This document shows, in pieces, positions 7,089 through 9,961 of a DNA stretch of 20,502 nt. The DNA is taken from positions 1-20,502 of the IMG/VR virus record IMGVR_UViG_3300045919_000155, one strand, 5' to 3'. Source of the stretch: a virus. Both the position numbers and the translations under genes were made by a program. Within the stretch, counting starts at the first letter, position 1. The number at the start of each line of letters is the position of its first letter. The notes beneath the pieces are model-generated. The model ran no database searches, was not told where the DNA came from, and saw nothing but the letters and a program-made list of their open reading frames with translations.

Positions 7089-7104
7089 AATAGTTTCACT
7101 TCCT

Positions 7105-7134
7105 TTTTAGTGTTAGTTTTAGTTTTAGTGTTAG
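7105..7134. repeat. 12-bp direct repeat in the leader of the helicase operon
   Basis: TTTTAGTGTTAG occurs at 7105-7116 and 7123-7134, 18 bp apart. In the leftward RNA this gives CTAACACTAAAA repeats, an A/C/T-only leader next to the ribosome site, comparable in style to the repeat leader at 2447-2490. Confidence 0.75.
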
Positions 7135-7154
7135 TTATATCATGCACACAAAAC

Positions 7155-7185
7155 AAAAGAGATACTATATTAAAGTATCTCTTTT
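7155..7185. terminator. Bidirectional terminator-type hairpin right after a promoter start
   Basis: Perfect 12-bp arms AAAAGAGATACT (7155-7166) and AGTATCTCTTTT (7174-7185) enclose a 7-base loop. On the leftward strand TTTTGTTTTG follows and on the rightward strand the run of T continues to TTTTTG, so it can terminate both ways. It begins only about 9 bases downstream of the start predicted for the promoter at 7201-7229, so leftward transcripts must pass it to reach the gene at 7088. It contains the same GAGATACT/AGTATCTC pair seen around the promoter at 3356. Confidence 0.75.
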
Positions 7186-7200
7186 TGTGCTGTGCTTCGG

Positions 7201-7229
7201 ATTATCTCAATTTGAGACTTTCACGTCAA
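7201..7229 (-). promoter_or_regulatory. Strong sigma70 promoter for the helicase operon with embedded palindrome
   Basis: On the leftward strand TTGACG (7229-7224), a 17-base spacer and GATAAT (7206-7201), with TGA before the -10. The 13-bp palindrome TCTCAA-T-TTGAGA (7205-7217) overlaps the spacer and the edge of the -10, a classic operator position. The predicted start is near 7194. Confidence 0.8.
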
Positions 7230-7252
7230 GCCTTCATTTTGTTGCTAGTTCT

Positions 7253-7411
7253 TTAGTTCTTTAGTATCTTGATTTCGTAATCATGCGAACTATGCACGAT
7301 ATATGCAATAATTGCATATCCTTTTTTTCTAGCTTCGTACATTATCTTATGCGCTTCATACTCACTATTTGCGCTTAGTGTTTCAGTGATTCTATTATTA
7401 TCTTGTTTCAT
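7253..7411 (-). CDS. Small 52-aa protein, unrecognised
   Basis: A leftward ORF of 52 codons starts with ATG at 7411, AAGGA lying 9 bases upstream, and ends with TAA at 7255-7253. The product (start MKQDNNRITETL, core YEAHKIMYEARKKGYAIIAYIV, end KILKN) has the pattern of a small folded alpha/beta protein: a helix followed by a hydrophobic strand. Codon use is ordinary. It begins 5 bases after the stop of the tiny Asn-rich ORF upstream, suggesting coupled translation. Its function is unknown, and small phage regulators or host-takeover proteins are the obvious class. Confidence 0.6.
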   Translation of the reverse strand: MKQDNNRITETLSANSEYEAHKIMYEARKKGYAIIAYIVHSSHDYEIKILKN

Positions 7412-7416
7412 TTTAT

Positions 7417-7503
7417 CTAATCCTTGTATGTTATGTTATCCGAACCCTGATTATTCATATTATCCATATTATTTAAATTATCCATATTATTCATGTATCG
7501 CAT
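7417..7503 (-). CDS. Possible Asn/Met/Asp-rich leader peptide (28 aa)
   Basis: An ORF of 28 codons reads from ATG at 7503 (or 25 from ATG at 7494) to TAG at 7419-7417. A very strong Shine-Dalgarno (GGGGAGG) lies 10 bases before the second ATG. The product is nearly a repeat of NNMDN units (start MRYMNNMDNLNNMDNMNN). Its stop codon lies inside the ribosome site of the 52-aa ORF, so it may act as a coupling or leader peptide. The repetitive DNA (ATTATCCATATTATT twice) could equally be a binding site, hence low confidence. Confidence 0.4.
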   Translation of the reverse strand: MRYMNNMDNLNNMDNMNNQGSDNITYKD

Positions 7504-7663
7504 ACCTCCCCTCCCGATTTTTCACCTTGTGATTTTATCTGAGTTAGTATCTATGTCTTATGCCTATTTTATACCCATATCTAAAATTTATTACATACAC
7601 TCCCCTACAAACTAAGATAGTTATATGTATACTAATAAGAGTAGATAGTTATACAAGGTAACC
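7504..7663. other. Gene-free stretch between leftward units, with 11-bp direct repeat
   Basis: I see no ORF of note here. AGATAGTTATA is repeated at 7615-7625 and 7643-7653 (28 bp apart), and a TATAAA on the leftward strand (near 7571-7566) lacks a credible -35. A promoter for the two small ORFs at 7253-7503 probably lies here, perhaps regulator-dependent, but I cannot place it. Confidence 0.5.
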
Positions 7664-7694
7664 AAAAAGGGGAAAGTGCTAGACAGTCCCCCTT
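7664..7694 (-). terminator. Intrinsic terminator after the 98-aa gene
   Basis: On the leftward strand AAGGGG (7694-7689) pairs with CCCCTT (7672-7667), and a run of T (7668-7664) follows. It sits about 40 bases beyond the stop at 7732 and closes the unit that begins at the sigma54-type promoter. A 13-bp direct repeat, TAATCCTGATAAT, lies between it and the gene (7715-7727 and 7733-7745). Confidence 0.65.
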
Positions 7695-7731
7695 CGGTAT
7701 AACGGTAATAAGGCTAATCCTGATAATACTG

Positions 7732-8028
7732 TTAATCCTGATAATTCAGATATACAGGGCTTCCCTTTTTCTTTTCTCTTATCTCAGTTAGCACAGACCA
7801 TACTTCGAGTGCCAAGTCTCGTTCTTTCGGGGAGTATCTAATCATACTAGTATTAGGTATTCTCACCCCGTAGTATAGAGCAGTGCTAAGCTCCCTTACT
7901 TCATTAAGTGAATCTAACTTATATCTTGCCGTGATTATCATTATCGCACCGTTAGCTAGTTCTATTCTAGCAAGCCCGTCATTGGGTGATGTCCCGATAA
8001 CACAATTCCGTATAGTATCCATTTTCAA
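7732..8028 (-). CDS. Unrecognised 98-aa protein
   Basis: This 98-residue protein of unknown function has a beta-rich first half (NCVIGTSPNDGLARIELANGAIMIIT in outline) and a helical, charged second half ending GSPVYLNYQD. The start at 8028 has GGAG about 8 bases upstream. With the 228-aa gene before it, it forms the only unit behind the sigma54-type promoter. These two genes use more CpG-containing codons (ACG, GCG, CGA) than the rest of the left arm, which may mean a separate origin. The likely class, by position next to the divergent control region, is an early regulator or host-interaction protein. This is inference. Confidence 0.7.
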   Translation of the reverse strand: MKMDTIRNCVIGTSPNDGLARIELANGAIMIITARYKLDSLNEVRELSTALYYGVRIPNTSMIRYSPKERDLALEVWSVLTEIREKKKGSPVYLNYQD

Positions 8029-8062
8029 GTCTCCATATATCTCAATTAGCGCAAAGTTACGC

Positions 8063-8091
8063 TATATAACAGCCTGTCACACTGTTATATA
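8063..8091. repeat. Perfect 10-bp inverted repeat between two leftward genes
   Basis: TATATAACAG (8063-8072) and CTGTTATATA (8082-8091) are separated by 9 bases. There is no T-run after the stem in either direction, so it is not a standard terminator. It may be an RNA hairpin that separates expression of the 228-aa and 98-aa genes, or a two-fold protein-binding site. Confidence 0.75.
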
Positions 8092-8124
8092 ACTGCTCTA
8101 CATTCTACATTCTGTACCTTGTAA

Positions 8125-8811
8125 TTACAGTCCCAACATATCCTCTTTTACTTCCTGCATATTTTTAAGCTTATTAATAAAACTTGCACCTAATCGAGTG
8201 TTATCCGCGCCTGATACCTCTAATCCTCTAATAAGTTTATGCGATACATCTTTACTATATGACGTTTTAGACCCTGCTAATGCGCAATATTTAGTTTTAT
8301 AATCCTCTATGATTCTATTAATTCTTACTGTATCACTCGCGCTAGGTGTATCACTCACGCCTAACTTATCCGCGATGGCAATCATAAGGTAATCTTTAAC
8401 CTCTGCATCGTACCACACGCCGATACTTTCCTTAGATAACCTGTTGCTTACTGCTTCATTGCTCATGTACTTGATACACTTTTCTATGCTTAAACTGTCC
8501 AATTGTATTGTACAGCCAGCGCCATGCTCAAGTAATGTATCTCTTACGATGTCATTCTGTACAGATTCTATCATCGTGATTATATGTGGCAATAAAGCTG
8601 TGATGCTGTCTAACACTTCATTACTATCAATCTCGGGTATTTCGGTGAATTGGTTAGGCATTGGAGCATTAAACTCCTGCGTATTTTTAAACTTCGTTAC
8701 TACTAGTCTGCTACCATTTACAATTAGTGGTGGTTTCTTAGCGTTATATTCATGTGCCATTGTAACCCCGTTGCTGTTATTCACTGTATTACTAATTTGA
8801 TGATTGCTCAT
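8125..8811 (-). CDS. Unrecognised 228-aa protein under a sigma54-type promoter
   Basis: This 228-residue protein has no family I can name. The first 45 residues are polar and Asn-rich. A largely helical body follows (LDSITALLPHIITMIESV near 67-84; DYLMIAIADKLG near 140-151; VRINRIIEDYKTKYCAL near 162-178) and a basic C-terminal part (GASFINKLKNMQEVKED). No membrane segment or enzyme motif is visible. The start at 8811 has AGGGGA 8 bases upstream. It is the first leftward gene from the divergent control region and starts about 62 bases beyond the start site expected for the sigma54-type promoter, so it should be made under different host conditions from the sigma70-driven genes. An alternative start at residue 18 (Met-Ala-His) is possible. 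Confidence 0.75.
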   Translation of the reverse strand: MSNHQISNTVNNSNGVTMAHEYNAKKPPLIVNGSRLVVTKFKNTQEFNAPMPNQFTEIPEIDSNEVLDSITALLPHIITMIESVQNDIVRDTLLEHGAGCTIQLDSLSIEKCIKYMSNEAVSNRLSKESIGVWYDAEVKDYLMIAIADKLGVSDTPSASDTVRINRIIEDYKTKYCALAGSKTSYSKDVSHKLIRGLEVSGADNTRLGASFINKLKNMQEVKEDMLGL

Positions 8812-8880
8812 GTTATATGTCCCCTATAAAATTAAACTACATTAAACTACACTCGCAAGAATTATCCTTGCCCTATATAT

Positions 8881-8900
8881 AAAGCAATACTCGTGCCAAC
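8881..8900 (-). promoter_or_regulatory. Sigma54 (RpoN) -24/-12 promoter
   Basis: On the leftward strand the sequence is GTTGGCACGAGTATTGCTTT. It matches the RpoN consensus TTGGCACG-N4-TTGC in full, with GG (8897-8896) and GC (8885-8884) separated by exactly 10 bases. The expected start is near 8873, ahead of the gene at 8811. Such promoters need host RpoN and an ATPase activator bound upstream. Confidence 0.72.
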
Positions 8901-8927
8901 TATCTACAACCAACAAAAAATAATTAT

Positions 8928-9049
8928 CCTTTATAATCATATACTTACAGCATAACTTGTAATATGACTACTCACTAACTTACTACTCTTCTCACTTCCT
9001 AGAATATATCATTCTCATATATAACAATCCCTTTATAATCAGTAACTTA
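8928..9049. repeat. Dispersed 20-bp direct repeat with IHF-like site
   Basis: The 20-base stretches at 8928-8947 and 9030-9049 share 17 positions (CCTTTATAATCA-N4-CTTA), 102 bp apart. The second contains AATCAGTAACTTA (9037-9049), a full match to the IHF consensus WATCARNNNNTTR; the first has one mismatch. IHF often bends DNA between a sigma54 promoter and its enhancer. Confidence 0.6.
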
Positions 9050-9079
9050 TAGTTCTCATTCTTGAGAATACATTCTCAT
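9010..9079. promoter_or_regulatory. Cluster of TTCTCA half-sites, including a full inverted repeat
   Basis: TTCTCA-N4-TGAGAA at 9053-9068 is a full two-fold site, and single half-sites ATTCTCAT lie at about 9011-9018 and 9072-9079. They are 140-200 bp upstream of the expected sigma54 start site, the usual enhancer distance. They could equally be operators for the rightward promoter. Confidence 0.5.
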
Positions 9080-9091
9080 TTATAAGAACAT

Positions 9092-9124
9092 ATACATACT
9101 GCATACATACTGCATACATACTGC
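9092..9124. repeat. Three perfect 11-bp iterons (ATACATACTGC)
   Basis: Three identical head-to-tail copies occupy 9092-9102, 9103-9113 and 9114-9124, so each copy faces roughly the same side of the helix. They are followed by an AT-only-type tract (9131-9153). This arrangement fits either binding sites of an activator for the promoter at 9146 or origin iterons beside a melting region. Confidence 0.85.
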
Positions 9125-9145
9125 GCATCTACATAATAATAATAT

Positions 9146-9151
9146 TATAAT
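9146..9151 (+). promoter_or_regulatory. Candidate -10 box of the rightward morphogenesis promoter
   Basis: A perfect TATAAT lies at 9146-9151, but the -35 position (9123-9128, GCGCAT) does not resemble TTGACA. The iterons end exactly there, so an activator could replace -35 contacts. The start would be near 9158, about 160 bases before the small terminase gene. No better rightward promoter was found between 8812 and 9316. Confidence 0.4.
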
Positions 9152-9316
9152 ATGATGGGGTGGAAGCCTTTTTAAGTTGATGTGTTCGCTGCTAACCTAT
9201 GCGACAACATACAATTTTCTAAACTTTTTTAGATACCCTACTAGCTACAAGATACTATAAACGTGTAGTATACTCCTAAGATTCCAAGAATCTCATCCCA
9301 AGATAGGAACATACCC

Positions 9317-9961
9317 ATGAGCGCAACTAAATCAGAACTATCCACACAAGCAAAGATAGCAAGAAACTCCACAATAGAAAGAGCTATCTCACTACTAGGC
9401 TCAGGACTCAATCCAGAGATAGTAGCTAACACCCTGGGAGTAACAGCAGGTTACATATCACAGTTAATGTCTCAGACTGATATAGCCTCAGAAGTTACAG
9501 CTTTGCGCTACGAGGCATTGCAGAAACATAACACCAGAGACTTAGGATATGATGCACTAGAAGATGCACTCCTAGAAAAGATGAGAGACTTATTACCTCT
9601 CATGCACCGTCCAATGGAGATACTTAAAGCTCTCTCAGTAATCAATGCTGCTAAGAGGAGAGGTCAATCCGCTCCAGAAACTATACATAACCAACAGACT
9701 ATTGTACAACTAATCCTACCAACTAGTGTAATACAATCATTCCAAGTAGATACAAAAAACTCTGTAATTAAAACTGGCGAACAAGAACTGCTAACTATTT
9801 CTCCTAAGCACCTTCTAGCTACTGTAAAAGGAAATATACAAGATGATAAAACTAGAGACAGAGACAGAACTGGGAACAGAACTGGAAGTTCAGAAGGAAC
9901 AGTCCAAGAGCGAATTAGAGCTGCTAAAGAGCTTAGAAACTCAGCCACTAAGAATCTCTAA
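9317..9961 (+). CDS. Terminase small subunit
   Basis: This 214-residue protein should bind the packaging site in phage DNA and hand it to the large subunit. Residues about 18-60 form a helix-turn-helix (ERAISLLGSGLNPEIVANTL, then GVTAGYISQLMS), followed by a helical oligomerisation region (DALEDALLEKMRDLLPLMHRP) and INAAKRRGQ, as in small terminases of podovirus-like phages that I recall. A beta-rich segment (VQLILPTSVIQSF) and a charged tail end the protein. The ATG at 9317 has AGGAA about 9 bases upstream. It is the first gene of the rightward operon and lies 84 bases ahead of the large subunit. The gene context makes the assignment secure; sequence alone would be moderate. Confidence 0.8.
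   Translation: MSATKSELSTQAKIARNSTIERAISLLGSGLNPEIVANTLGVTAGYISQLMSQTDIASEVTALRYEALQKHNTRDLGYDALEDALLEKMRDLLPLMHRPMEILKALSVINAAKRRGQSAPETIHNQQTIVQLILPTSVIQSFQVDTKNSVIKTGEQELLTISPKHLLATVKGNIQDDKTRDRDRTGNRTGSSEGTVQERIRAAKELRNSATKNL

Follow-up and report, generated by a model that had tools for sequence, protein, structure and literature searches.

The Locus and Its Core Promoter Element

The window, i.e., the whole 20.5-kb stretch of an IMG/VR virus record that was analyzed, carries terminase, portal and major head protein genes on its right and helicase/exonuclease genes on its left. A 505-bp divergent intergenic region (8812-9316) is flanked by gene X (8811-8125, minus strand) and the small terminase gene (9317-9961, plus strand). 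The features discussed here are as follows.

7732-8028, minus strand: second leftward ORF, 98 amino acids, TTG start (from the ORF list; no PHROG or Pfam match)
8125-8811, minus strand: gene X, 228 amino acids, conserved in the family
8821-8825, minus strand: RBS-like AGGGG, 9 bases ahead of the ATG (read from the sequence)
8855-8873, minus strand: predicted transcript start (about 8872) and 5'-terminal hairpin GGGCAAGGATAATTCTTGC, 7-pair stem
8883-8898, minus strand: sigma54 -24/-12 element TGGCACGAGTATTGCT, perfect consensus, place and spacing conserved in relatives
8935-8947, plus strand: IHF-like site AATCATATACTTA, one mismatch to WATCAANNNNTTR, between candidate enhancer and promoter
8989-8994 and 9012-9017: two more TTCTCA half sites, 91 and 114 bp upstream of the promoter (read from the sequence; weak)
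9053-9068: candidate enhancer palindrome TTCTCA-TTCT-TGAGAA, perfect inverted repeat, 155 bp upstream
9073-9088: second candidate enhancer, TTCTCA-TTTA-TAAGAA, 20 bp from the first copy and 175 bp upstream (read from the sequence)

The minus strand at 8898-8883 (TGGCACGAGTATTGCT) is a perfect sigma54 -24/-12 element with GG at 8897-8896 and GC at 8885-8884, and matches GG-N10-GC within TGGCAYR-N4-TTGCW at every position. Read from 8899 to 8884 the same strand gives TTGGCACGAGTATTGC, i.e., TTGGCACG-AGTA-TTGC, the sole exact match (0 mismatches) in the window. The established consensus TGGCAYRNNNNTTGCW occurs once against 0.01 expected (mean of 100 dinucleotide shuffles), which bears out the view of an earlier note on this DNA that such a match is improbable by chance. 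That note had described a perfect element, 10 bases between GG and GC, in intergenic DNA about 70 bases from a gene start; it is indeed the only exact copy, and it lies 73 bp before the gene X ATG at 8811. A looser search (up to 3 mismatches) found 9 matches in the window with 7.2 expected. This is chance level, and weight is therefore given to the perfect match only. A DNA search with the promoter region against named phages returned 0 matches.

Conservation in Related Phages

Relatives were gathered by way of the large terminase, giving 80 related viral contigs, and conservation was scored in the 67 records (contigs or named phages) that extend 1.2 kb or more upstream of the terminase. A minus-strand match of at least 10/12, with GG and GC exact, is present at the equivalent place in 35 of the 67 loci and is perfect in 17, counts that are not independent because the loci are related (about 24 distinct lineages). 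When the spacer of 4 is replaced by one of 1, 2, 3, 5, 6 or 7, perfect matches number only 0-1. The strong sites face away from the terminase and are found about 0.9-1.7 kb ahead of it. A gene X homologue is found downstream of the site in 28 of 29 loci examined, often as the first ORF. The sigma54-type promoter that the earlier note saw facing gene X is thus strongly supported by GG-N10-GC conservation in many relatives, the check which that note itself had proposed.

The site is patchy. On the terminase tree 34 of 71 tips have it, which requires 15 or more changes, and about half of the relatives are without it, so it is not indispensable to the phage group. It was not found in the nearest named phages (Polaromonas Tiera, Aeromonas P5, EBPR podovirus 3 and Pseudomonas PaMx41). 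Some relatives keep gene X yet lack the site. Gene X could be transcribed mainly by sigma70 polymerase, with the sigma54 element minor or a relic, and a strong sigma70-like promoter is possible in relatives without the site (e.g., TTGACT-N16-TATTAT in L012, shuffle p 0.00). However, in the window the highest-scoring sigma70-like match ahead of gene X reaches 9/12, not above chance, and most sigma54-bearing loci are alike in this, which makes transcription mainly by sigma70 polymerase quite improbable. A general swap of sigma70 and sigma54 promoters before gene X was considered and set aside; only L012 is convincing and the group difference has p = 0.15.

In several relatives (L032/L034, L044, L058/L059, also L298, L323 and L337) sigma54 sites diverge at a separation of about 70-120 bp, with pilin-type boxes (described below) beside or between them.

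IHF Sites and the Leader Hairpin

The perfect IHF consensus WATCAANNNNTTR, sought 15-110 bp upstream of the sigma54 site in 29 loci, is present in 10 of them at 26-53 bp, with 0.22 expected. Nine of these ten sites share one orientation and lie at 38-53 bp. The one-mismatch site of the window, 49 bp upstream, has the same orientation and place as the perfect sites of its relatives. Sigma54-dependent promoters commonly, but not always, have an IHF site in this position between enhancer and promoter.

The predicted leader has a feature of its own. If transcription starts about 12 bases past the -12 C, as the test assumes, a hairpin of at least 5 pairs falls within the first 26 nt of the leader in 17 of 24 loci (5.9 expected); 11 other offsets gave no comparable excess. 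In the window this is a 7-pair stem, and the 65-nt leader has an MFE of -11.1 kcal/mol. The positional hairpin test replaced a z-score test of leader folding, which was not decisive alone. An Rfam search gave no match.

None of these features (IHF sites, leader hairpin, enhancers) was used in choosing the sigma54 sites, and together with the upstream palindromes they agree with the prediction of a working enhancer-dependent promoter. They also bear on whether the element is a chance match without function in AT-rich intergenic DNA. One site in one window, with relaxed matches at chance level, could be read that way, but the expectation of 0.01, the spacing and place conserved across the family and the registration of IHF site and leader hairpin make such a coincidence extremely improbable.

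Among viral contigs scanned for an IHF site with a sigma54 site, only 7 of the 80 checked stretches belong to the family of the window. In L129, two complete IHF-plus-sigma54 units lie in tandem at 1957-2098.

Candidate Enhancers in the Family

Palindromic candidate enhancers occur 50-180 bp upstream of sigma54 sites in the family, and they are of several classes. TGACA-N5-TGTCA was found 7 times with 0.03 expected, for example in L044, L058, L059, L073 and L118. TGCAC-N7-GTGCA was found 3 times with 0 expected (none in 1.03 Mb of other sequence). The latter is the NtrC box, defined as TGCACCAnnnTGGTGCA (PMC8743547), and is present upstream of the site in L049 as TGCACYA-N3-TGGTGCA and imperfectly in L040. 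The phage layout agrees with the described one, in which the UAS is 100-150 bp upstream and looping is assisted by IHF (PMC7057263).

The window carries neither of these; both the pilin-type TGACA-N5-TGTCA and the NtrC box TGCACCAnnnTGGTGCA are absent upstream of its sigma54 site. Its own motif, TTCTCA-N4-TGAGAA, shows a modest, about 3-fold enrichment in this zone across the family (7 versus 2.3 expected), and matches no identifiable regulator. The tandem TTCTCA palindrome was matched at no host promoter in 419 genomes (0/20 and 0/399), and a composite of the same type and spacing was found in 0 other viral contigs.

The first class is named pilin-type from its occurrence in cellular genomes. 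A scan of bacteria and archaea, one genome per species, for TGACA-N5-TGTCA followed by a sigma54 site gave at least 119 stretches. Among the matches listed, a type IV pilin is encoded within 500 bp in 74 of 120 composite-bearing loci (one of them a phage contig), as against 3 of 15 for other sigma54 sites in those loci. PilR has a known role at pilA, and by analogy it may be the protein that binds the pilin-type box. In IMG/VR viral contigs the pilin-type composite occurs in 54 stretches (57 sites), with 13 in an arm-swapped control, 6 of which were contigs that the true composite had also picked out; for the NtrC-type composite the numbers are 39 and 1. A type IV pilin gene follows none of the 57 viral pilin-type sites. 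With dozens of viral contigs carrying a sigma54 promoter and a host-type enhancer, the rarity that the earlier note ascribes to phage promoters of this class is doubtful.

Other palindromes have been seen in the same zone. Fur-box-like palindromes (AATGATAATCATT, at most 1 mismatch) number 13 with 0.1 expected and also occur in phages without a sigma54 site; they lie in the divergent intergenic region about 0.9-1.3 kb before the terminase (e.g., L015, L019, L023, L040, L058 and L062). A GTTAGTGAGTACTCACTAAC-like palindrome, 10 copies in the zone and 0 elsewhere in family loci (L020, L023, L047, L057, L073, L347 and L359), looks like a candidate regulator operator. For the GGTAACA repeats in L023-L025, CbrB is not claimed as the binding protein, CbrAB being described as confined to pseudomonads. 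A number of NtrC-type contigs (L342, L346-L349, L351, L353-L355, L366 and similar) have an inverted sigma54-like site directly after the sigma54 site, often with no ORF of at least 50 amino acids starting within 300 bp. Is this inverted site a decoy, part of a small RNA gene or of a longer leader?

Such clusters raise a rival role for the region, that of a sponge whose sigma54, NtrC, PilR-type and Fur-like sites would titrate out host factors without driving transcription. Some NtrC-type contigs, with more than one sigma54 site or an inverted one and no ORF of this size nearby, would fit a sponge, as would Fur-like boxes that cluster without an obvious promoter role. In the family of the window, however, one and the same gene follows the site at a distance typical of promoters, and the predicted start and the leader hairpin are in register; a handful of sites could also hardly titrate a host factor before replication. 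Titration is therefore very improbable, and a promoter for gene X is preferred.

Which protein would activate that promoter has been approached through the phage genomes. Across 29 records from the window's family and from named relatives, no PF00158 sigma54-activator domain scored above the Pfam cut-off; many of these records are fragments (several are of 42-46 kb), so that a phage activator outside them is possible. Since no enhancer-binding protein gene reaches the cut-off in these records, the activator is presumably the host's. Alternatively, an unrecognized phage-encoded activator might drive the promoter, the variable palindromes being its operators. The window and several relatives are fragments, and the palindrome class differs from phage to phage, as would be expected of operators for phage regulators that evolve fast. 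Against this, no PF00158 domain exceeds the cut-off in the 29 records, several of 42-46 kb among them, and two of the palindrome classes correspond to sites of host regulators, known or demonstrable, which leaves a phage-encoded activator improbable and a host protein the preferred candidate.

Gene X and Its Neighbors

Gene X belongs to a family of about 220 amino acids, of which 30 homologues align. Its AlphaFold model is confident (pLDDT 88.9) and mostly helical. It falls into no PHROG or Pfam family, a fold search gave no match at E ≤ 0.001 in the PDB or a viral library, and homologues are absent from named phages. As a query for close relatives in viral contigs it found none; the homologues were reached by way of the terminase instead.

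The earlier note had placed two genes under the promoter. For gene X this holds up well; the 98-aa ORF (8028-7732) is not among the families shared by sigma54 loci, and its co-transcription with gene X is only possible. Further along, a sigma70-like promoter at 7229-7201 (TTGACG-N17-GATAAT, shuffle p 0.02) may serve the next large gene (7088-6018). Sigma54 control may consequently reach no further than gene X and, perhaps, the 98-aa ORF. Ahead of this 356-aa gene a sigma70 promoter is seen in only 3 of 28 loci, the window being one, which does not make it a pattern of the whole family.

Positions 7089-7731 of the window form 640 bp with few genes, including a 12-pair terminator-like hairpin at 7185-7155. 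An 11-bp inverted repeat (CTATATAACAG/CTGTTATATAG) lies at 8062-8092 between gene X and the 98-aa ORF. At 9157-9175 a G-rich GGGGTNNGAGCCTTTTT-like element adjoins the small terminase gene, as in most relatives, and is a possible packaging or promoter signal.

A Proposed Host-Activated Promoter with Exchangeable Enhancers

We consider it about 85% probable that 8883-8898 forms the core element of a functional enhancer-activated, sigma54-dependent promoter for gene X, driven by a host enhancer-binding protein and with exchangeable enhancers. Host RNA polymerase with sigma54 would bind 8883-8898 as a closed complex, and a host-encoded enhancer-binding protein would bind palindromes about 90-190 bp upstream (9053-9088 in the window). 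An IHF bend near 8941 would then bring this protein to the promoter, where the closed complex would be opened and gene X transcribed leftward from about 8872. The phage group would retain the core promoter and vary the enhancer, which may be of the type IV pilin/PilR type, the NtrC type or others; if so, the host sensor to which the enhancer responds would set the expression of gene X.

Without an activated AAA+ enhancer protein a sigma54 promoter gives no transcription, and a phage gene behind one would for that reason be gated by a host sensor. The earlier note had expected dependence on host state. The pilin- and NtrC-type enhancers of relatives support this direction, but the palindrome of the window itself matches no regulator that could be identified. 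More tentatively, a large group of uncultured tailed phages might keep a conserved infection gene on a sigma54 promoter with exchangeable host-derived enhancers, so that the infection program is gated by the physiological state of the host; we hold this wider reading to be possible, though rather less than even odds. Cells making type IV pili, on which a phage might land, would be an example, and the Fur-like and other host-type palindromes of the region would then add further inputs. Were it true, a phage would be sensing the nitrogen or pilus state of its host through the host's own signaling, which can be tested directly, and the host signal to which a phage listens would be predictable from sequence.

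Comparison with Known Systems

A full-text search of the open-access literature, with titles and abstracts screened, found no description of a sigma54-driven phage promoter; the nearest parallels are in part bacterial. Bacterial type IV pilin (pilA) sigma54 promoters share the -24/-12 element and, with the relatives, TGACA-N5-TGTCA 70-150 bp upstream in the same orientation and spacing. They differ in what follows, since the viral composites never precede a pilin (0/57), and the window has another palindrome. The glnA-type NtrC promoters resemble the arrangement in L049 and, less perfectly, L040, where TGCACYA-N3-TGGTGCA lies upstream of the site, as well as the 39 viral contigs; the boxes are present in some phages only, and the window is without them.

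For the pho-box system of cyanophages we know of no interchangeable enhancer classes. Cyanophage genes are under host PhoBR control by way of pho boxes (PMC10976474). That system works through PhoB, not through sigma54 and an AAA+ enhancer protein, and the genes concerned are mostly metabolic or replication genes. The likeness is that phage genes are run by a nutrient two-component regulator of the host, as the sequences of the present phages suggest.
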